Made by a program: the position numbers and the translations under genes
Assembly: GCA_007751255.1 (NCBI GenBank)
Contig: CP036296.1
Coordinates: forward strand, 2,852,001-2,916,000
Length of the DNA stretch: 64,000 nucleotides
Direction: 5' to 3'
Origin: Engelhardtia mirabilis
Lineage (GTDB): Bacteria; Planctomycetota; UBA1135; GCA-002686595
Shown: one piece after another, positions 29,533-39,058 of the stretch
Numbering within the stretch: the stretch's first letter is position 1
How the letters are laid out: each line of letters starts with the position of its first letter
The notes under the pieces: model-generated
Seen by the model: the letters and a program-made list of their open reading frames with translations, nothing else
What the model was told of the DNA's origin: nothing
The model's database searches: none

Positions 29533-30765
29533 TCAGGACTCGCTCGGCGGGAGCTGGCGCAGGAACCAGACGAAGCCGGTGCCGTCCTCGTGGAGGATCT
29601 CTCCGCGGGCGTCCCAGAGGGCTTGGTAGTCGGCCGTGAGCTCGTCGGTCCACTCGGACCCGGCCGCCTGGAAGCGCTCCATGAACTCTGCCTCGCGCAG
29701 GTCCCAGGCGTCGAGCCGCTCGCGGGCGGCGGCCTCGTCGAGGCCCTCGCCCGGCGTGGTGACCTGCGCGCAGTCGCCGACGAGCAGGTCGAAGCGGCCG
29801 TCGCCGTCGACGTCGTCGACCCACACCCGCAGGGAGCCCTGGGGACCGTCGATGTGCCCCTCGCCGAAGACGATCTGGCCGGACATGACCGCGCGGCTCA
29901 CCGGGACGTCGAACAGCTCGACGGGCTCGGCGAAGTCCGCCGGCCCCGCGCCGGTGTGCTCGAAGAGGTCGATGCCGCGCACCGATCCGCTGACCAGGTC
30001 CAAGTCGCCGTCCCCGTCCCAGTCGAAGAAGACCGGGTCGCTGTGGTGCTCCACGACCAAGGGCTCGCCCCCGCGGGTCAGTTGTACCGAGTCCGGGGCG
30101 AAGGCTCCGTTCCCCGCGCCGCGGAACAGGTGGAAGGTGCCCTCGAAGTTGCCGGAGACGATGTCCAGGTGCCCGTCGCCGTCGAAGTCGACCGCGGTGG
30201 GGCGGGTGCAGATCTTGCCGATGGACTCGTCCACGCCGCTGATGATGAGCGGCTCGCCGTCGGTCCCGAGCAGGGTCTCGGGCTCACCGAAGCCGCCGCC
30301 CTCGAGCCCGGGCAGGACCCAGAAGAGGCCGGCCATGTCCTCCTCCATCCGAGAGTAGGAGCCCGAGAGCAGGTCGATGCGTCCGTCGCCGTTGACATCC
30401 ACGAACTGTGGAGTCGAGGAAGTGCATCACCAGACGCCGGGCACCTCGACCACGTCGCCCGCCGCGCGCAGCCAATCGCCGGCGCCGAACCGCCCCTGGC
30501 CGAGGCCCGGATAGACCATCATCTTCCCGCCCTTGAACTGCCCGACGACCAGGTCTGCGTGGCCGTCGCCGTCCAGGTCGTGGAGGGCCGGCGCGGCGTA
30601 GCCGGGCGCCTCGGTGCGGATCACCGCCCCGGCGGCCTGCAGGCGCACCGGCGGGGCGAACTGGACGGACTTCGCCGATCGGTTCGGCTGGGCGGCTCGA
30701 ATCGGGGCGACCCCGGCCGCGTCGGGCCCTTGGGCCAGGGCGGCGGCCAACATCACGATCAACAT
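29533..30765 (-). CDS. Candidate selenoprotein: secreted FG-GAP/VCBS-repeat protein with in-frame UGA (copy 2)
   Basis: Read as one 410-residue protein in which codon 113 is TGA (30427-30429), decoded as selenocysteine. Upstream: short signal peptide MLIVMLAAALAQG and a first repeat with DLDGDGHADLVVGQF. Downstream in the same frame: VDVNGDGRIDLLSGSYS, VDFDGDGHLDIVSGNF, DWDGDGDLDLVSGS and VDDVDGDGRFDLLVGD, the calcium-binding loops of a beta-propeller. The UGA sits in PGVW-U-CTSSTPQF. The neighbouring paralogue has UGA at the identical position with the same flanks, and a conserved hairpin follows. FG-GAP homologues in planctomycetes, as I recall them, have Cys-Cys here. The ATG at 30765 has GAGG upstream. 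A C-terminal helical stretch ends with FVWFLRQLPPSES. The alternative is two adjacent ORFs split by a nonsense codon. Confidence 0.75.
30394..30415 (-). promoter_or_regulatory. Candidate bacterial SECIS hairpin (copy 2)
   Basis: On the minus strand, GACUCCAC-AGUUC-GUGGAUGUC forms an 8-bp stem with one bulged U and a 5-nt loop. The loop begins 20 nt after the UGA (30427-30429), the same distance as the SelB-binding loop in E. coli fdhF. The loop holds GU, and the bulged U recalls the critical unpaired U of bacterial SECIS elements, though here it is on the 3' side. The codons ACT and CCA used here are unusual for this genome. Confidence 0.6.
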
Positions 30766-30825
30766 GCTTGCCTCACTTCGGAATCAGAGGGTCGAGGGTC
30801 GTTCCGGGCCAGTCGGCGCCGGTGG

Positions 30826-32100
30826 TCAGTGGGGTCCGCCCGCGTCGGGGCCCGGGGACGCGGGGGCTCGGCGAGTGGGCTGCGCGGGGCGCTGCAGGTA
30901 CATCCAGACGAACCCGGCGCCGCTTCCTTCCACGATCTCCGCGCGCTCCGCCCACAGGGCGTCCCAGGCCGCCTGGAATGCCTCCTGGGTCAGCTCCGGC
31001 GTCACGGTGCGCCGCTGGAGCGCCTGGCTGCGGGCGTTCCATTGGGCGAGCCGGGTCGCGGCCGTGGCCTCGTCCAGGCCTTCGGCCGGGTAGGTCACCG
31101 TCGCCTTGTCGCCGACCAGGAGGTCCACCAGGCCGTCCCCGTCGAGGTCGCCCGCCCACACGCGCAGGTTCTGCTCGGGGGCGCGGAGGTGGGCGTCGCC
31201 GAAGCGCGGTGGGTCGGGGGAGTGCTCGGGCAGGACCCCCTCGACCAGGGTGCGGGGCTGGCCGAAGACCGGAGCGTGGACGTCGCCCTCGTTCAGGAAC
31301 AGGTAGACGCCCCGCGAGGAGCCGCTGACCAGGTCCTGGTCGCCGTCGCCGTCCCAATCGATGAAGAACGGGTCGCTCTTGGACGAGACCGCCACGCGGG
31401 ATCCACCAGTCCGGCGCAGCTCGTGGCTGCGCGGCGAGAAGCGGCCAGGACCCTCGCCGGCGAAGACGTGGAACGTCCCGGCGGAGTTGCCGCTGACAAT
31501 GTCCGGCCAGCCGTCGCCGTTCAGGTCGACGGCGGTGGGCCGGGTGCAGCTTCGCTCCGAGCTGGTGGCGTCGGGGGAGCCGATCACGAGCGGCTGGCCG
31601 TCGGACCCCTCGAGCACCTCGGGGGCGCGGAAGCCGCCACCCTCGACCCCGGCCATGACCCAGAACAGGCCGAAGCGGTGGTCGCCCTCGCGCTGTCGGA
31701 AGGAGCCCGAGAGCAGGTCGACCAGCCCGTCACCGTTGACGTCCACGAACTGTGGAGTCGCGCTGGTGCATCACCAGACCCCGGGCACCTGGGCGATCTC
31801 CCCGCCGGCCATGAGCCACTCACCCTCGGCGAAGCGGCCCTCGGCCAGGGCCGGGTAGACCTTGATCCGTCCATCCTTGAAATGTCCGACCACCAGGTCG
31901 CGCAGACCGTCGCCGGTCAGATCGAAGAGGGTCGGCGTGGCGTAGCCGGGCGGGGGAGTGCGTACCGGCTGGCCCGCGGCGACGAGGCGACGGGGAGCGC
32001 TGAAGTTGATCCGCTCGAGCGGTGGACGCTCGGCCTGGGCCGGCGCGCGCGGCGACTCGACCAGTTGGCCCGTGGCAACCGACAGCAACAGGGTCAGCAT
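30826..32100 (-). CDS. Candidate selenoprotein: secreted FG-GAP/VCBS-repeat protein with in-frame UGA (copy 1)
   Basis: 424 residues when TGA codon 110 (31771-31773) is read as selenocysteine. Signal peptide MLTLLLSVATGQLVESPRA; GAGGAG lies 7 nt before the ATG. The first repeat, DLTGDGLRDLVVGHFKDGRI, leads to PGVW-U-CTSATPQF. The frame then continues through VDVNGDGLVDLLSGSF, VDLNGDGWPDIVSGNSAG, DWDGDGDQDLVSGSSRG and DLDGDGLVDLLVGD. The two tandem copies are clearly paralogous along their full length but have diverged considerably, yet both keep the UGA and the next Cys. A broken gene would not be expected to preserve the same stop and an intact frame behind it. Extracytoplasmic, with calcium loops and a vicinal Sec-Cys pair; redox or metal-binding role unknown. 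60 bp upstream of copy 2, probably one transcript. Confidence 0.75.
31738..31759 (-). promoter_or_regulatory. Candidate bacterial SECIS hairpin (copy 1)
   Basis: The same element as in copy 2: GACUCCAC-AGUUC-GUGGACGUC, beginning 12 nt after the UGA, with its loop at +20 to +24. Only one of 22 bases differs from copy 2 (the bulged U is C), even at synonymous positions, although the flanking codons differ. This conservation is stronger than the protein requires. Confidence 0.6.
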
Positions 32101-32534: not shown

Positions 32535-34814
32535 TTGCGCGGTCTGACTTCGCCCCTTCGTGTCTGCATCCTCACCGGCTCGCTCTTGGTTGGGTGCGAG
32601 GCCCTGGCCTTCGCGTCGCACCAAGTGTCCGGCTCGGCCGACCCCGGAGCCGACCCGGGAGTGGTCGCTCGCCCGGCCACCGATTCGGCCGAAGTAGCAG
32701 GCGCAGGGGTCGTTGGCCGCGATGGGCGGCAGGCAGCCACTCCCGGAACCGACGCCTCCGAAACCGTGGTCACCGCCACGCGGCACCCCGAGCGGCCGTT
32801 CGACATTCCGCTCGCGGTGACCGTCGTCCCGCGCGAGGAGTTGCGCGAGCAGAGCGCGCGCACCGCCGCCGAGGCCCTGCGGCGCAAGCCGGGGATCTGG
32901 GTCCAGAAGACCGGCCACCTGGGTGGCGCACCGATCCTGCGCGGATTCATGGGAAACCGTGTCACCTACCTCTTCGACGGCATCCGGCGCAACACGGCCG
33001 GGCTCTTCGCGGGTCCCAACTCGTACCTGCAGAACATCGACGCCCTCGATATCGATCGGATCGAGGTCGTGCGCGGCCCGGGTTCGGTGCTCTACGGCTC
33101 CGACGCCATCGGCGGGGTGATCAACGTGATCAGCAACGAGGTTCCCCGCTTCGCACCCGAGCCGAGCCTCGGCGGCAACCTCTACACCCGCTACGGGAGC
33201 GCCGACCAGGAGTGGTCGAGCCGGGTCGAGAGCTACTACTCGGACGGCGACGTCTTCGCGCACATCGGCGGCACCTCCCGCGAGATCGGTGACGTCGAGG
33301 GCGGACAGGGCGTCGGGGTCCAATCCCCGAGTGGCTGGCGCGAGCGCGACCTGGACGCACAACTCGACCTGCGTATCGACGCCAAGTCGTCGGTCGAGCT
33401 GTTCCTGCAGTCCTTCTCGCGGCCCAGGGGTTATCGCTATGACCGCCCGAACTGGGTCCAGTCGAACGACCGGGACCTGTACGGCGCGCGCTACCGGGCC
33501 GAGGATCTGGGCGGCTTCGTGAGCGAGCTGGAGGTGACCGGCTACTTCCACGACCAGGAGGACTTCATCGACGAGAAGTTCTTCGACTCCGACTCCGACG
33601 AGGAGACCCTCGGTTTCGAGGTTCAGGCCACGTCCTACGTCGGCAGCGACGTGCGCCTGATCTACGGGCTGCACGTCCATCGGGATCAGATCGAGAAGAG
33701 CAACCCCCAGGCGGGCACCGTCGATCCGGACGTCGAGTGGATCAACCCCGCCGCCTACGTCCTGTCCGAGTGGCAGGCGACCGAGCGCCTGCGCCTCGAC
33801 CTGGGTCTGCGTTGGGACAGCTTCACCCTCGACTCCAGCGCGCCCCAGTTGGGGCAGCTCGATCCGGTGCTGCAGACCGCCATCGGCAACGGGGCCCTGT
33901 CCCTGAACGACCTGGAGCTGAACGAGAGCGACCAGGCCGTCACCGGCGGGTTTGGCGCCGTCTATGCGCTGACCGATCACACCAACCTGGTGGCCCACGT
34001 GGGGCGCGCTTTCCGCGCCCCCAACAAGAACGACCTGCTCAGCTTCGGGCAGTTCACCTTCGGCTTCAACGTGCCGGCCACGAACCTCGAGCCGGAGTCG
34101 AGCTGGACCTACGAGCTGGGCGTGCGTACCGAGGACGAGGATTACTCGGCGGCTGCGACGGGCTTCTACACGGAAGTCGACAACGCGATCGTGTCGGCCC
34201 CGGGCACCTTCGACGGCTCGACCTTCGTCGACGTGGACGGCAGCGGCTTCGAGGATCCCGGCGAGGCCGTCTACGTCAAGGGCAACTCCGACGGCACCGT
34301 GCGTGCGACTGGTGTTGAAGTCGAGGCCCGGCGCTGGTTGCCGCGGGACTGGAGTCGGGCGGTGGTCGACGAGGGCGAGTTCTCCTGCTATGGCAACTTC
34401 GCCTGGATCTACGGCGAGGACTCGGGCAGCGGCGAGCCCCTGGATCGGGCCTATCCGGCCAACGGACTGGTCGGCCTGCGCCTGGACGAGACGCGCGAGG
34501 CGAGCGAGAGCCGCTGGTGGCTGGAAGCGGAGCTCTGGCTGGTGCGGAAGTTCGACCGCATCCCCAGCAACCGCAAGACCAGCGATCCGGCCTTCTTCGT
34601 CGATCCCCAGGACCCCTCGTCGGGGCTGATCGGCGGCGACGGTTCCCTGCCCGGCTTCGGGGTGGTCAACCTGCGCGGCGGACGGCGACTCGGCAAGCAC
34701 TCGACCCTTTACGTCGGCGTGGAGAACGTCGGCGACAAGGCCTATCGAGTGAAGGACTCGCGCATCGACGCCCCGGGCATCAACTTCGTCCTCGGCATCA
34801 GCGCGAGCTTCTGA
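32535..34814 (+). CDS. TonB-dependent outer-membrane receptor (corrinoid- or heme-type)
   Basis: 759 residues. An N-terminal signal and a long Ala/Asp-rich spacer (about 25-75) precede the TonB box region ETVVTATRHPE. The plug domain has PLAVTVVPREEL, AAEALRRKPGIWVQ, APILRGFMGNRVTYLFDGIR and RIEVVRGPGSVLYGSDAIGG. The rest is a 22-strand-type barrel ending in the aromatic C-terminus FVLGISASF. The TTG start at 32535 has GAGGA at proper spacing. It opens an operon with a periplasmic CobN-like chelatase and its own ExbB/DUF2149/TonB energiser, so a tetrapyrrole substrate is likely. The leader carries a candidate cobalamin-type riboswitch, favouring corrinoids; the operon shape resembles Bacteroidota hmu heme loci. 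Confidence 0.92.
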   Translation: MRGLTSPLRVCILTGSLLVGCEALAFASHQVSGSADPGADPGVVARPATDSAEVAGAGVVGRDGRQAATPGTDASETVVTATRHPERPFDIPLAVTVVPREELREQSARTAAEALRRKPGIWVQKTGHLGGAPILRGFMGNRVTYLFDGIRRNTAGLFAGPNSYLQNIDALDIDRIEVVRGPGSVLYGSDAIGGVINVISNEVPRFAPEPSLGGNLYTRYGSADQEWSSRVESYYSDGDVFAHIGGTSREIGDVEGGQGVGVQSPSGWRERDLDAQLDLRIDAKSSVELFLQSFSRPRGYRYDRPNWVQSNDRDLYGARYRAEDLGGFVSELEVTGYFHDQEDFIDEKFFDSDSDEETLGFEVQATSYVGSDVRLIYGLHVHRDQIEKSNPQAGTVDPDVEWINPAAYVLSEWQATERLRLDLGLRWDSFTLDSSAPQLGQLDPVLQTAIGNGALSLNDLELNESDQAVTGGFGAVYALTDHTNLVAHVGRAFRAPNKNDLLSFGQFTFGFNVPATNLEPESSWTYELGVRTEDEDYSAAATGFYTEVDNAIVSAPGTFDGSTFVDVDGSGFEDPGEAVYVKGNSDGTVRATGVEVEARRWLPRDWSRAVVDEGEFSCYGNFAWIYGEDSGSGEPLDRAYPANGLVGLRLDETREASESRWWLEAELWLVRKFDRIPSNRKTSDPAFFVDPQDPSSGLIGGDGSLPGFGVVNLRGGRRLGKHSTLYVGVENVGDKAYRVKDSRIDAPGINFVLGISASF

Positions 34815-34819
34815 GCGGT

Positions 34820-37800
34820 ATGCAGACCGTCGGAGGGATGGACTCGGGCATGGGCGGAGATCCTAAGGTTCGGGGCGAGTGCAGTGAGGCGGTGCGGCGG
34901 CGTCCGCCGCGGTACGGGCGGAGCTTCGTGGGACTTCTGGTCGCACTACTCGTGCTCGCGGGGGCGCCGCTCACCACTCGAGCTCAACAGGAGGGCCCGT
35001 CATCCGCCGCGGCGCCCATCGGCGACCTGCCCCGGCTCGGCTTGCTCGGACTGCACGGCGGGGCGATCGAGCCGATCGTCGCCGGGGCGCGGGGTCTGGG
35101 AGCCGAGGCGGTGGGCCTCGACGAGGACTTCCACTCGAGCGAGGCGCCGGATTGGTCCGATCTGGACGCCGTTCTGATTCAGCATCTGCGCGCCGAGGAC
35201 GCCGTGCAATGCGCAGGCGCCATCCGCCGCGCCCGCGCCGCGAACCCCGACCTGGTGGTTCTCGCCATCAGTGGCGGCCTCGACAACGTACTGCCGGAGC
35301 TGACCGCGGACGGAACCGTGGTCACCGATCCGCGGGTAACCGCCCTGTACCGCGCGTCCGGTCCGGAGAATCTGCGCCGACTGATCCTGTACGTCTTGGT
35401 GGCCCACCTCGGCCAGGCCGGGGAGGTCCTGCCGCCCAGGACCGAGAGCGGAGCGACTCTGTTCCACCCGGAGGTCGACGAGGGCTTCGCCGGCGTGGCC
35501 GCCTACCTCGACTGGGCCTCTGAGCGCACGCCCGGCGCCGCCGACGCCCCCCGCGCGGCGATCGCCGTGCACCACATCCACCGCCTGATCCAACAGCCGC
35601 GGGTGGTGGCCGCCCTGGTCGATGCACTCGAGACGCGCGGCATGACGGCCCTGGTGATCGAGGACGGTCAGCCGGCCTACCGGGAGCAGATGCTGGAGTT
35701 CGCCCCCGACGTGGTGCTCCACATCTGCCACAGCCTGGCGGAACCGAGCCTGCGCTCCGAGCTCGGTGTGCCGCACCTGCACTCGATCTTCTTCCGCCTG
35801 CAGTCGATCGAGGAATGGAAGTCCAGCGACGAGGGGCTCGACGCCAGCACGGTCGCCTTCCAGATGACCTCCCAGGAGGTCTTGGGCGCTATCGAGCCCC
35901 AGGTCGGGGCGGGCACCCTGCGCGGGCGCAACAGTCCGGAGGACCTGACGCCTATCCCCGATCGGATCGACCACCTGGCCGACAGGGCCGTCGCCTGGGC
36001 GCACCTCGGTCGCAGCCCCAACGCGGACAAGCACGTCGCGATCGTCTACTACAACCGCGAGCTGGGGAAGGCCGACCTGATGCGCGGCAGCGCGACGGGC
36101 ATGTTCCTGAACGCGCCGCGCAGCTTGATGGCCGTTCTGCGACGCATGCAGGCGGAGGGCTACGCCACCGGACCGCTCCCGACCGACGAGGACGACCTGC
36201 TGGAGCGCATGGTCGACCACGGCCAGCAGATCGGCGCCTGGGCTCCGGACGAACTCGACCGCCTGGCGCGCAGCGGCCAGGCCGTGTTGATCCCGGCCGA
36301 GACCTATCGGGCCTGGTTCGAGGAGCGGGTGCCGCTGCACCGTCGCCGCGAGCTGATCGAGAAGTGGGGGGCGCCGCCGGGCCGCATCCAGGTCTGGAAG
36401 AACGACGAGGGCGCGGAGTTCATGGTCCTGCCGCGGGTCGAGCTGGGCCCGGGCGTGACCCTGCTGCCCCAGCCCCTGCGCGGCGAGGCCCACGATCCGT
36501 CCCTGGCCCACGATCGGCTGGTGCCGCCCTCGCACAACTACTTGGCGACCTACTTCTGGTTGCAGCAGGAGTACGGCGCCGACGCCCTGGTGCATTTCGG
36601 CACCCACGGCACGGAGTTCCTGCTCCCGGGCAAGTCGAACGGCCCCGCGGAGGACGACTGGACCGACCTGATCCTCGGCCGCGTGCCGAACATCAACCTG
36701 TGGGTGGTCAACAACCTGGGTGAGTCGACCCCGGCGCGCCGCCGCGCCTACGCGGTGCTGGTGGACCACATGGTGCCGCCCAGCGTGTCCGCGGGGATTG
36801 CGGACGAGCTGCTCTCCCTGCACGACGACATCGAGAAGTGGATGGCGCTCGAGCCGGGCGCGCTGCGCGAGGAGTTCCGCGCGACGATCACCGAACGCGC
36901 GCTGGCCGAACGCTTGGACCGCGACCTGGAGTTGGCGCAGGACGACGCGGGCCTTCTGACCGTGGATGCCATCGCCGCGGTCTCCGACTACCTGCACGAG
37001 GTGCAGAACGAGACCACGCCGATCAGCCTGCACACCCTGGGCGAGCCGCCCGCGCAGGAGGTGCTGGTGCCCTACCTGGTCACCTGCCTCGGCTCGCGCT
37101 TCCTCGACGACCTGGCACAGGCCATCGGCGTGCCGGCCCGCGGCGGCGCCACGGCGGGGGACTGGGACCAGCTCCAGCGCGGGCGCGCCGAGCGCCTGCT
37201 CGAGTTGCACCTGATGCGCGGCCTCGACGGCGAGTCCGCTCTGCACGCCATCGGAGGCGAGGCCGCCGCTGTCCGCTTGACCGAGGGCGTGCGCAAGGGC
37301 CTCGAGCTGGCGGTGCGCCTGGCCGCGGGCCTGGCAGGAGCCGGCTCGGAGATCGACGGTCTGATGACCGCCCTGTCCGGCGGCTTCGTCGAGCCCGGGC
37401 CCGGCAACAGCCCCGACCGCAACCCGGGCGTGCTTCCGACCGGGCGCAACATGTACCTGCTCAACCCCGAGGAGATCCCCAGCCGTCCCTCGTGGGAGTT
37501 GGCTTGCGCGCTGATCGACCAATTCCTTGTGGCGCAGCTCGAGGACCAGGGCCACTACCCCGCCAAGGTCGGCTTCACCCTGAACTCCTTCGCGAGCTTC
37601 CAGGACTACGGGGTGATGGAGGCGCAGATCCTGTACCTGCTCGGGGTGCGGCCGGTGTGGGACTCCCGCAACCTGGTCAACAGCCTGGAGCTGATCCCGA
37701 GCGAGGAGCTGGGCCGCCCGCGCATCGACGTGTTCATCTCTGCGCTCAGCTACTACCGCGACTTCCTGCCCAGTCGCATGCACCTGCTGGACGAGGCGGT

Positions 37801-39058
37801 GCGCCTCGTCGCGGCCCTCGACGAACCGCAGAACCGCGTCTTCGAGAACACCGCGCGCACACGCGACGAGCTGCGCGGCCTCGGGATGGCTCCTGAGCGT
37901 GCGGACGTACTCTCCCGCGCGCGCCTGTTCGGCTACCCGCCGGGCCAGATGGGCAGCGCCGGCTACTACTACCTGGTCGAGCGCTCGGGTGAGTGGGACT
38001 CGGAGCAGGAGCTGATGGAGACCTACCTCTCCCACGTGCGCCACGTCTACACCGAGGGCGCCTGGGGCGAGCACGCGCCCGAGGCCTTCGAGCGCCAGAT
38101 CCAGGGCACCGAAGCGATCCTGCGCAGTTGGTCGGACCGCACCCGCAGCCCCCTGTCGAACAAGTACGACTGGTACCAGGGCGGCAGCCTCTCGCGGGCG
38201 GTGAAGTACCTGACCGGGCGCGAGCCGCTGTTCCTTCTGACGGACGTCCGCGATCCCGACCGCGCGCAGATCGTCGATGCGCAAGAGGCCCTGCGGCGCG
38301 ACTACCGCGTGCGGCTGTTCAACCGCAAGTGGATCGAGGGGATGATGGCCGAGGGCCACGCCGGTGGCGACCAGATCGCCGTGCACGTGTCGAACACCCT
38401 GGGCTGGGCGATCATGCGCGAGTCGGCGGTGGACGCCGCGACTTGGGAGCAGATCGTGGAGACCTATGTCGACGATCGCCTGGACCTGGGCCTTGGCGAG
38501 TGGTTCGAAGAGGAGAGTCCCTACGCCTACCAGGAGCTGCTCGAGGTCACTCTCGAGGCGATCCGCAAGGGCTACTGGGACGCGAGTCCGGCGTTGCGCG
38601 CGAAGTTGGCTGGCGAGTACGTGGACTCCTTGGCGCGACACGGCGAGGGCGGCGGCTTGCGCGGCGGAGGCAACGTGGCCTTGGCCGAGTTCCGGGCTTC
38701 GGTTCTCGGGCAGGTGCCAGGCGCAGTCGATGCGGGTGTGCTGGTGCAGATCGCAGGCACGGCCGATGCCGTCGCGAATGCAGCGCAGGCGCTCCAGGCC
38801 GCGTCGGCGCAGCTGGTGCCGGCGCGGGTGGCGGCCTCATCCGAAACCCGACCGAGCGAGGGCGCGAGCGCGCCCCCCGATGACTCTCCGCGAAGCCCGT
38901 CCGCTTCCGGCTCGACCGAGGTCCGCGGTCGGGTGCTGGAGCCGATTGCGTCCGGCGAAGCCCCGCCCGCCGATCGCACGGTCTGGATCCTCGCCGGCGC
39001 CGTGGCCCTGCTCCTTTGCGGCGGCTGGGTCGCGGGTCGAGGGGCGGCGCGCGTCTGA
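34820..39058 (+). CDS. Membrane-anchored periplasmic CobN/HmuS-like chelatase or dechelatase
   Basis: 1412 residues, the size of CobN/BchH large subunits. The N-terminus carries a hydrophobic signal segment (SFVGLLVALLVLAGAPL) and the C-terminus one membrane helix (WILAGAVALLLCGGWVAG), so the catalytic body is predicted to be in the periplasm, unlike cytoplasmic CobN. Family blocks: HICHSLAEPSL, LVPPSHNYLATYFWLQ, VHFGTHGTEFLLPGKS, the strongly conserved CobN/BchH metal-site region, NPEEIPSRPSWELA, GFTLNSFASFQDYG, and SNKYDWYQGGSLS near the end. Such proteins insert or remove a metal ion from a tetrapyrrole; HmuS in Bacteroidota is a heme-locus example. ATG at 34820, 5 bp after the receptor gene; other in-frame ATGs at 34838 and 34850 are possible. 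Confidence 0.88.
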   Translation: MQTVGGMDSGMGGDPKVRGECSEAVRRRPPRYGRSFVGLLVALLVLAGAPLTTRAQQEGPSSAAAPIGDLPRLGLLGLHGGAIEPIVAGARGLGAEAVGLDEDFHSSEAPDWSDLDAVLIQHLRAEDAVQCAGAIRRARAANPDLVVLAISGGLDNVLPELTADGTVVTDPRVTALYRASGPENLRRLILYVLVAHLGQAGEVLPPRTESGATLFHPEVDEGFAGVAAYLDWASERTPGAADAPRAAIAVHHIHRLIQQPRVVAALVDALETRGMTALVIEDGQPAYREQMLEFAPDVVLHICHSLAEPSLRSELGVPHLHSIFFRLQSIEEWKSSDEGLDASTVAFQMTSQEVLGAIEPQVGAGTLRGRNSPEDLTPIPDRIDHLADRAVAWAHLGRSPNADKHVAIVYYNRELGKADLMRGSATGMFLNAPRSLMAVLRRMQAEGYATGPLPTDEDDLLERMVDHGQQIGAWAPDELDRLARSGQAVLIPAETYRAWFEERVPLHRRRELIEKWGAPPGRIQVWKNDEGAEFMVLPRVELGPGVTLLPQPLRGEAHDPSLAHDRLVPPSHNYLATYFWLQQEYGADALVHFGTHGTEFLLPGKSNGPAEDDWTDLILGRVPNINLWVVNNLGESTPARRRAYAVLVDHMVPPSVSAGIADELLSLHDDIEKWMALEPGALREEFRATITERALAERLDRDLELAQDDAGLLTVDAIAAVSDYLHEVQNETTPISLHTLGEPPAQEVLVPYLVTCLGSRFLDDLAQAIGVPARGGATAGDWDQLQRGRAERLLELHLMRGLDGESALHAIGGEAAAVRLTEGVRKGLELAVRLAAGLAGAGSEIDGLMTALSGGFVEPGPGNSPDRNPGVLPTGRNMYLLNPEEIPSRPSWELACALIDQFLVAQLEDQGHYPAKVGFTLNSFASFQDYGVMEAQILYLLGVRPVWDSRNLVNSLELIPSEELGRPRIDVFISALSYYRDFLPSRMHLLDEAVRLVAALDEPQNRVFENTARTRDELRGLGMAPERADVLSRARLFGYPPGQMGSAGYYYLVERSGEWDSEQELMETYLSHVRHVYTEGAWGEHAPEAFERQIQGTEAILRSWSDRTRSPLSNKYDWYQGGSLSRAVKYLTGREPLFLLTDVRDPDRAQIVDAQEALRRDYRVRLFNRKWIEGMMAEGHAGGDQIAVHVSNTLGWAIMRESAVDAATWEQIVETYVDDRLDLGLGEWFEEESPYAYQELLEVTLEAIRKGYWDASPALRAKLAGEYVDSLARHGEGGGLRGGGNVALAEFRASVLGQVPGAVDAGVLVQIAGTADAVANAAQALQAASAQLVPARVAASSETRPSEGASAPPDDSPRSPSASGSTEVRGRVLEPIASGEAPPADRTVWILAGAVALLLCGGWVAGRGAARV

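Follow-up and report, generated by a model that had tools for sequence, protein, structure and literature searches.

A family of predicted FG-GAP propeller selenoproteins, found mainly in planctomycetes

Two neighbouring genes on the reverse strand of a 64,000-nucleotide (nt) stretch of the Engelhardtia mirabilis genome (contig CP036296.1; hereafter the window) raise the question of whether the in-frame UGA that splits each of them into two open reading frames (ORFs) is a stop codon or a codon for selenocysteine (Sec). A preliminary description of this sequence had favoured the second possibility and had treated the tandem pair as a candidate selenoprotein family. The evidence assembled below indicates that the UGA of both genes, here termed A and B, is almost certainly decoded as Sec, and that the two are very probably members of one large selenoprotein family. 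The idea of a selenoprotein family is supported, and the family is much larger than had been supposed. The features on which the argument turns are as follows:

29533..30765, reverse strand: gene A, predicted FG-GAP propeller selenoprotein, 410 amino acids with the UGA decoded, final ordinary UGA at 29533-29535 (from the ORF list, the joined translation and Pfam)
30427..30429, reverse strand: predicted Sec-UGA codon, residue 113 of gene A, in a motif common to 104 of 111 homologues
30424-30426, reverse strand: codon of the conserved Cys 114 of gene A, directly after the UGA
30398..30412, reverse strand: hairpin of gene A resembling a bacterial Sec insertion sequence (bSECIS), UCCAC-AGUUC-GUGGA, 15-29 nt past the UGA, with 19 nt from UGA to loop
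30826..32100, reverse strand: gene B, tandem paralogue, 424 amino acids with the UGA decoded, final ordinary UGA at 30826-30828
31771..31773, reverse strand: predicted Sec-UGA codon, residue 110 of gene B, in the motif shared with the homologues
31768-31770, reverse strand: codon of the conserved Cys 111 of gene B, directly after the UGA
31742..31756, reverse strand: bSECIS-like hairpin of gene B, UCCAC-AGUUC-GUGGA

The tandem pair and its family

In the ORF list gene A appears as 30427..30765 (reverse strand, 112 amino acids, TGA-terminated) and 29533..30402 (reverse strand), and gene B as 31771..32100 (reverse strand, 109 amino acids) and 30826..31746 (reverse strand). When the UGA is read as a residue, both ORFs of each pair join in a single frame, which stays open for 297 codons past the UGA in gene A and 314 in gene B, up to a second, ordinary UGA in each. 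The list and the joined translations agree with the preliminary description on the same-frame pairs split by one TGA (30427-30429 and 31771-31773), on the roughly 300 open codons beyond it, and on the shared PGVW-TGA-CTS(S/A)TPQF followed by VDVNGDG, which reads PGVWUCTSSTPQFVDVNGDG in gene A and PGVWUCTSATPQFVDVNGDG in gene B. Overall, the two proteins are 54% identical in a pairwise alignment.

A search of 392 Planctomycetota genomes with gene A as the query (E <= 1e-15) recovered at least 111 matches in 87 genomes, member counts being lower bounds as at most four candidates were scored per genome. All 111 were read singly: 104 contain one UGA in the motif and seven contain Cys-Cys, the latter being Cys homologues at the UGA column, as the preliminary description had stated for planctomycete FG-GAP proteins. 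The residue after the UGA is Cys in 103 of the 104 and Arg in one; in this sole Arg case (L118) the sequence reads UGA CGC in place of UGA-Cys. A profile built from 49 sequences (E <= 1e-60) retrieved at least 125 members in 97 of the 392 genomes, with a UGA member in 90 of the 97, and the number of internal TGAs in the 125 matches is exactly one in 118 and none in seven. These counts, together with the divergence between genes A and B, bear out the earlier view that the TGA is conserved rather than a fresh mutation. Further, in an alignment of 183 UGA members the UGA falls in one column in 183 of 183 rows and is accompanied by Cys in 182, for which the proposed vicinal Sec-Cys pair holds. This conservation is far beyond chance. 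Ten further FG-GAP matches in the E. mirabilis genome served as a control: none has an internal stop, and their profile alignment shows no such pair. The complete genome G383 encodes four UGA members (C1:3126473-3127636, 3130854-3131975, 1993186-1994445 and 398188-399459), two of which lie near each other, as in the window.

The frame downstream of the UGA shows the signature of a maintained coding sequence. Ten pairs of members were compared, one of which was saturated; in all nine pairs with usable synonymous divergence (dS), the nonsynonymous divergence (dN) 3' of the UGA is lower than dS, the ratio being 0.73 in the diverged window pair and about 0.08-0.48 in the others. Given the conservation of the downstream frame and the purifying selection on it, it is not likely that the short upstream ORF is the sole product, a possibility that the preliminary description had raised.

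Outside the planctomycetes, the Verrucomicrobiota (here including a Lentisphaerae bin) yielded matches at E <= 1e-40 in seven of 288 genomes. Three of these matches have the UGA, two of them already found by the DNA pattern described below; among the other four, the pair is absent in three and the corresponding columns hold Gly-Cys in one.

The hairpin and the selenocysteine machinery

According to the bSECIS model (PMC13188914), the distance of the hairpin loop from the UGA is 16-37 nt, with G in the first two loop positions. The 104 UGA members comprise 96 distinct sequences in this region, in which a hairpin is found 15-29 nt past the UGA, with a stem that is mostly UCCRC/GYGGA, a loop of the form AGUUN or AGGUN in 90 of the 96, and a UGA-to-loop distance of 19-20 nt, within the published range. 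The model as given there accommodates 176 of 181 distinct sequences.

Inspection of the stem reveals a pattern of paired change. The combinations at columns 18 and 26 of the 96 sequences are A-T in 67, G-C in 21, G-T in four, C-T in three, G-A in one and A-C in none, where column 18 is a third codon position, mostly of Pro, and column 26 the second position of a Val/Ala codon. A tree-aware test was made on a 183-row FastTree tree that had been built without the hairpin stretch: column 26 differs in 12 independent pairs, of which about ten co-change at column 18, two do not and none changes in the opposite sense (p 0.002), and, counted from column 18, ten of 14 pairs co-change, four do not and none is opposite. 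The A-C mismatch is absent from all 179 scored rows, though the retrieval pattern for part of the rows permits it. In the seven Cys homologues 4, 3, 2, 3, 3, 2 and 2 of the five stem pairs are formed. This covariation is the strong evidence for the hairpin, and selection at the protein level alone fails to explain it.

A DNA pattern for the UGA plus hairpin, TGATGYN(11)YCCRCAGKTNGYGGAY, proved specific. It matches the whole E. mirabilis genome twice, in genes A and B, and in the GTDB genomes (genome_contigs), a collection that may not have been fully scanned, it matches at least 118 stretches. Among the matches listed, the motif is in frame for this protein in 118 of 118, and all 118 hit a profile built from the 104 other members only (E <= 1e-10); 31 of those listed are members already in the set of 104. 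Fewer than 150 codons follow the UGA in ten of the 118 listed, nine of which end with the stored stretch while one (L166) stops internally. The phyla named in the record titles of the matches listed are Planctomycetota, Verrucomicrobiota, Armatimonadota, Bacteroidota, WOR-3 (Caldifarciminota) and Lentisphaerota, with the proviso that titles of metagenome bins can mislead, as in L219, which is titled Bacillota and is apparently contig G213:C14 of a Planctomycetota genome. Judging from these sequence collections, the family is found mainly in planctomycetes. There were no matches to the pattern in viral_contigs, and no phage carriage was seen there; two viral contigs (L140:9527-9558 and L141:6617-6648) match a hairpin pattern one base shorter, probably by chance.

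The E. mirabilis genome (6.9 Mb in two contigs) contains the components of Sec synthesis and insertion that the preliminary description had suggested looking for: tRNA-Sec (selC) scores 70 bits against a cut-off of 47, and selB (313), selA (461) and selD (318) each score above their cut-offs. In 14 control genomes tRNA-Sec exceeds its cut-off in five, selB in two, selA in one and selD in two. About 0.1 kb separates the end of the selA match from the start of the selD match, which contains a single in-frame UGA of its own:

L322:1501-2433, equal to C1:2448168-2449100 of the E. mirabilis genome: selD match with its UGA in CAGUAAK, directly after selA

The SelD of this organism is, by prediction, a Sec form and an internal example of the same UGA decoding; a hairpin, with the predicted loop GGUCU, also lies 3' of the selD UGA.

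Across the Planctomycetota (members at E <= 1e-15 with the gene A query, selA at E <= 1e-40, kinship uncorrected), selA is present in 77 of 80 genomes with a UGA member, in one of seven with Cys members only, and in 168 of 305 with no member at that threshold. tRNA-Sec is above cut-off in all eight genomes reached from family loci, these loci being titled Akkermansiaceae, Armatimonadetes, Bacteroidales, WOR-3, Lentisphaerae, Poly30, Fimbriimonadaceae and unclassified bacterium. One selA match (G326:C70:13854-15215) has an internal TGA and a TAA in a genome with a UGA family member, and is a broken gene or a sequencing error.

The combination of the UGA, a SECIS-type hairpin at fixed spacing, the Sec machinery and a conserved in-frame continuation points to Sec insertion by the established bacterial mechanism, in which SelB with Sec-tRNA would insert Sec at the internal UGA. 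Several observations pull the other way. Of 333 control windows taken from these genes, 127 also fit the bSECIS model, on account of which the fit is by itself weak evidence, and the 18-26 pair is broken in four of the 96 hairpins. Purifying selection past the UGA is weak in the window pair (dN 0.42, dS 0.58). A selA match is absent from three UGA-bearing genomes (G173, G212 and G332, 77-82% complete), one Cys genome (G188) has selA, and six of the seven Cys genomes belong to one genus, the selA contrast taking no account of kinship.

Were the UGA instead to terminate translation, the downstream part would arise by reinitiation, either at the ATG within UGAUG or at an in-frame GTG eight codons on, or would not be made at all, the genes then being pseudogenes. 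UGAUG does look like a coupled stop-start, and the downstream ORFs begin with a GTG candidate at that spot. However, by eye, the ATG is in a different frame from the conserved protein, and in 33 of 179 rows the middle base of the GTG is C, which makes it an Ala codon rather than a start, always together with a column-18 G that keeps the hairpin paired. Moreover, the frame is uninterrupted in the seven Cys-Cys homologues, and more than 100 genes conserve the downstream part; termination is highly improbable. Reassignment of UGA to another amino acid (e.g., Trp) or unspecific readthrough would also account for the open frame but has a negligible chance of being right, as genes A and B both terminate at UGA, the ten further FG-GAP matches of the same genome are free of internal stops, Cys aligns with the UGA in seven stop-free homologues, and the hairpin and the selA co-occurrence point to Sec. 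Pseudogenes, stop/restart and code reassignment were rejected on these grounds.

Predicted fold and possible role of the Sec-Cys pair

The product of such decoding would be an FG-GAP beta-propeller whose DxDxDG loops are of the calcium type, with the vicinal Sec-Cys pair directly ahead of the second of these loops. FG-GAP_3 and FG-GAP are above the Pfam cut-offs in proteins A and B, and 49 members scanned at E <= 0.001 match FG-GAP_3 in 49 cases and FG-GAP in 48. An AlphaFold2 model of gene A has a mean predicted local distance difference test (pLDDT) score of 90.8 and a predicted template modelling score (pTM) of 0.88; the nearest solved folds include PVL-type lectins, TcdB-type propellers, CRTAC1, ITFG2 and integrins, at template modelling (TM) scores of about 0.3-0.4. 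The only near-invariant redox residues are the Sec and the following Cys, other invariant columns being mainly those of the DxDxDG loops.

Nine long members were chosen for their extra length, and DsbD_N is above the Pfam cut-off in six of them, two of which also have PG_binding_1, while in one the protein extends into an AhpC-TSA domain that contains a further UGA, in TPGUT. A model made from seven such C-termini places DsbD_N in frame, with no stop between, in 11 distinct genes (the seven included), and the fusion entails at least five changes on the tree. Additionally, six of the seven Cys homologues, these six being from one genus, are followed immediately downstream on the same strand by a DsbD_N-like ORF with CxxxxC. 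The N-termini of the window proteins look hydrophobic by eye, and some members have type IX secretion system (T9SS)/FlgD_ig segments, which, along with DsbD_N and PG_binding_1, suggest that these proteins may be exported. The gene with the peroxiredoxin domain (L235:2598-4986, reverse strand; the same gene as L104) combines the Sec-Cys propeller, DsbD_N and AhpC-TSA in a single open frame with TPGUT as its second UGA, and its product is a candidate two-selenocysteine polypeptide.

From the near-invariance of Sec-Cys and its fusion or adjacency to DsbD_N, and once to AhpC-TSA, we infer an extracytoplasmic redox centre, and on balance we lean towards a redox role for the pair. In the mechanism that we propose, the exported protein would cycle its Sec-Cys pair between selenol/thiol and selenenylsulfide outside the cytoplasm and would be reduced by a DsbD-N-terminal-domain partner, which several lineages have fused to it or encode next to it. 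Its substrate would be an oxidised one, for instance a peroxide or a protein thiol in oxidised form. As a bolder and more tentative proposal, the family could represent a widespread extracytoplasmic selenoenzyme without the thioredoxin fold, a calcium-loop propeller of some six phyla whose Sec-Cys pair would receive electrons from a partner of the DsbD-N-terminal type and hand them on to peroxides or a peroxiredoxin, and which was hidden by truncation at the UGA in gene calling.

On the negative side for a redox role, the DsbD_N fusion is limited to the 11 distinct genes among those examined, most members and the window pair being without it; no DsbD_N was found beside the seventh Cys homologue (L055/L284); and a survey of 61 loci (the window and 60 others; 677 neighbour ORFs, crude ORF caller) found no family-wide neighbour. 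Its widest neighbour cluster, with a representative that by eye resembles an ATP-binding cassette (ABC) ATPase, occurs at 12 of the 61 loci, five of which share further neighbours. A real partner may have been lost in this survey, since the ORF caller missed a TonB receptor in the window. This TonB-dependent receptor, followed by a CobN/magnesium-chelatase-like protein, occupies 32535-39058 on the forward strand, divergent to gene B; the two are possibly a metal-tetrapyrrole uptake pair.

The same neighbours feature in an alternative reading of the selenoprotein, namely that Sec-Cys is not a redox catalyst and instead a ligand of a soft metal, metalloid, organometal or metal tetrapyrrole. The position of the window genes beside, and divergent to, the TonB receptor and the CobN-type chelatase would suit such a function, and PMC13188914 reports predicted ligands for about 20% of selenoprotein families, about 70% of these being metals or metal-derived, with metal-binding and mercury-related families having a CU motif in its table. 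Yet no relative of the CobN ORF occurs close to the family genes at the other 60 loci, and the recurrent link is to DsbD_N and once to a peroxiredoxin; a ligand role appears unlikely, if worth keeping in view. Less probable still is a selenenylsulfide with a purely structural function, giving the propeller the shape needed to bind a ligand or a surface. Vicinal disulfides play such a structural role in some proteins, and the nearest solved relatives, including lectins, CRTAC1 and integrins, are mostly binding proteins; against this, Cys-only versions exist, and it would be unusual for costly Sec to be retained in order to form a structural bond.

Relation to known selenoproteins and propellers

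A catalogue of May 2026 counts 119 prokaryotic selenoprotein families and subfamilies (PMC13188914, Table 1), and most characterised selenoproteins have a thioredoxin-like fold according to that paper. FG-GAP, VCBS and propeller entries are absent from its full Table 1, as is a plain UC motif. In NCBIfam (June 2026), 49 members match 17 families at E <= 0.01, none of which bears the name of a selenoprotein, and proteins A and B match one model at E <= 0.1, below its cut-off. Among the open-licence PMC papers that link selenoproteins or selenocysteine to FG-GAP or VCBS, none is, by title, on this family. The claim of an undescribed class of selenoprotein is thus upheld for the catalogue and for NCBIfam, but does not extend to literature beyond open-licence PMC. 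On this sequence-based evidence, it is apparently new at the level of the family, the kind of protein being known, with a fold and a Sec-Cys arrangement not in the catalogue table.

The findings would add a whole family to the known prokaryotic selenoproteins, and a common one, present in 97 of 392 Planctomycetota genomes at E <= 1e-60, whose genes are prone to annotation as a pair of broken ORFs. For many planctomycetes it may be a further reason to retain the Sec trait. DsbD_N offers a testable partner, and the complete named genomes Pla163 (CP036290) and Poly30 (CP036434), presumably from cultured strains, carry targets.

In comparative terms, the family resembles the catalogued prokaryotic selenoproteins in its in-frame UGA, its fit to the bSECIS model, the existence of both Cys and UGA homologues, and the presence of the Sec machinery in the same genomes; unlike them, it is a propeller family with a plain UC motif, neither of which is listed in the table of PMC13188914. 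It likewise conforms to the FG-GAP and FG-GAP_3 proteins (PF01839, PF13517), the latter matched by 49/49 members and the former by 48/49, but differs from other FG-GAP proteins, as represented by the ten in the E. mirabilis genome, in having a Sec-Cys pair ahead of the second DxDxDG loop. The DsbD N-terminal domain (PF11412) and, once, the AhpC-TSA peroxiredoxin are fused to or lie beside the propeller in several lineages; the DsbD_N copies seen to their end have CxxxxC by eye, and the propeller fold differs from those of both partners. Finally, the closest solved relatives, both by sequence profile and by fold, include fungal PVL-type lectins, CRTAC1, integrin alpha propellers and ITFG2, though at TM-scores of only about 0.3-0.4.

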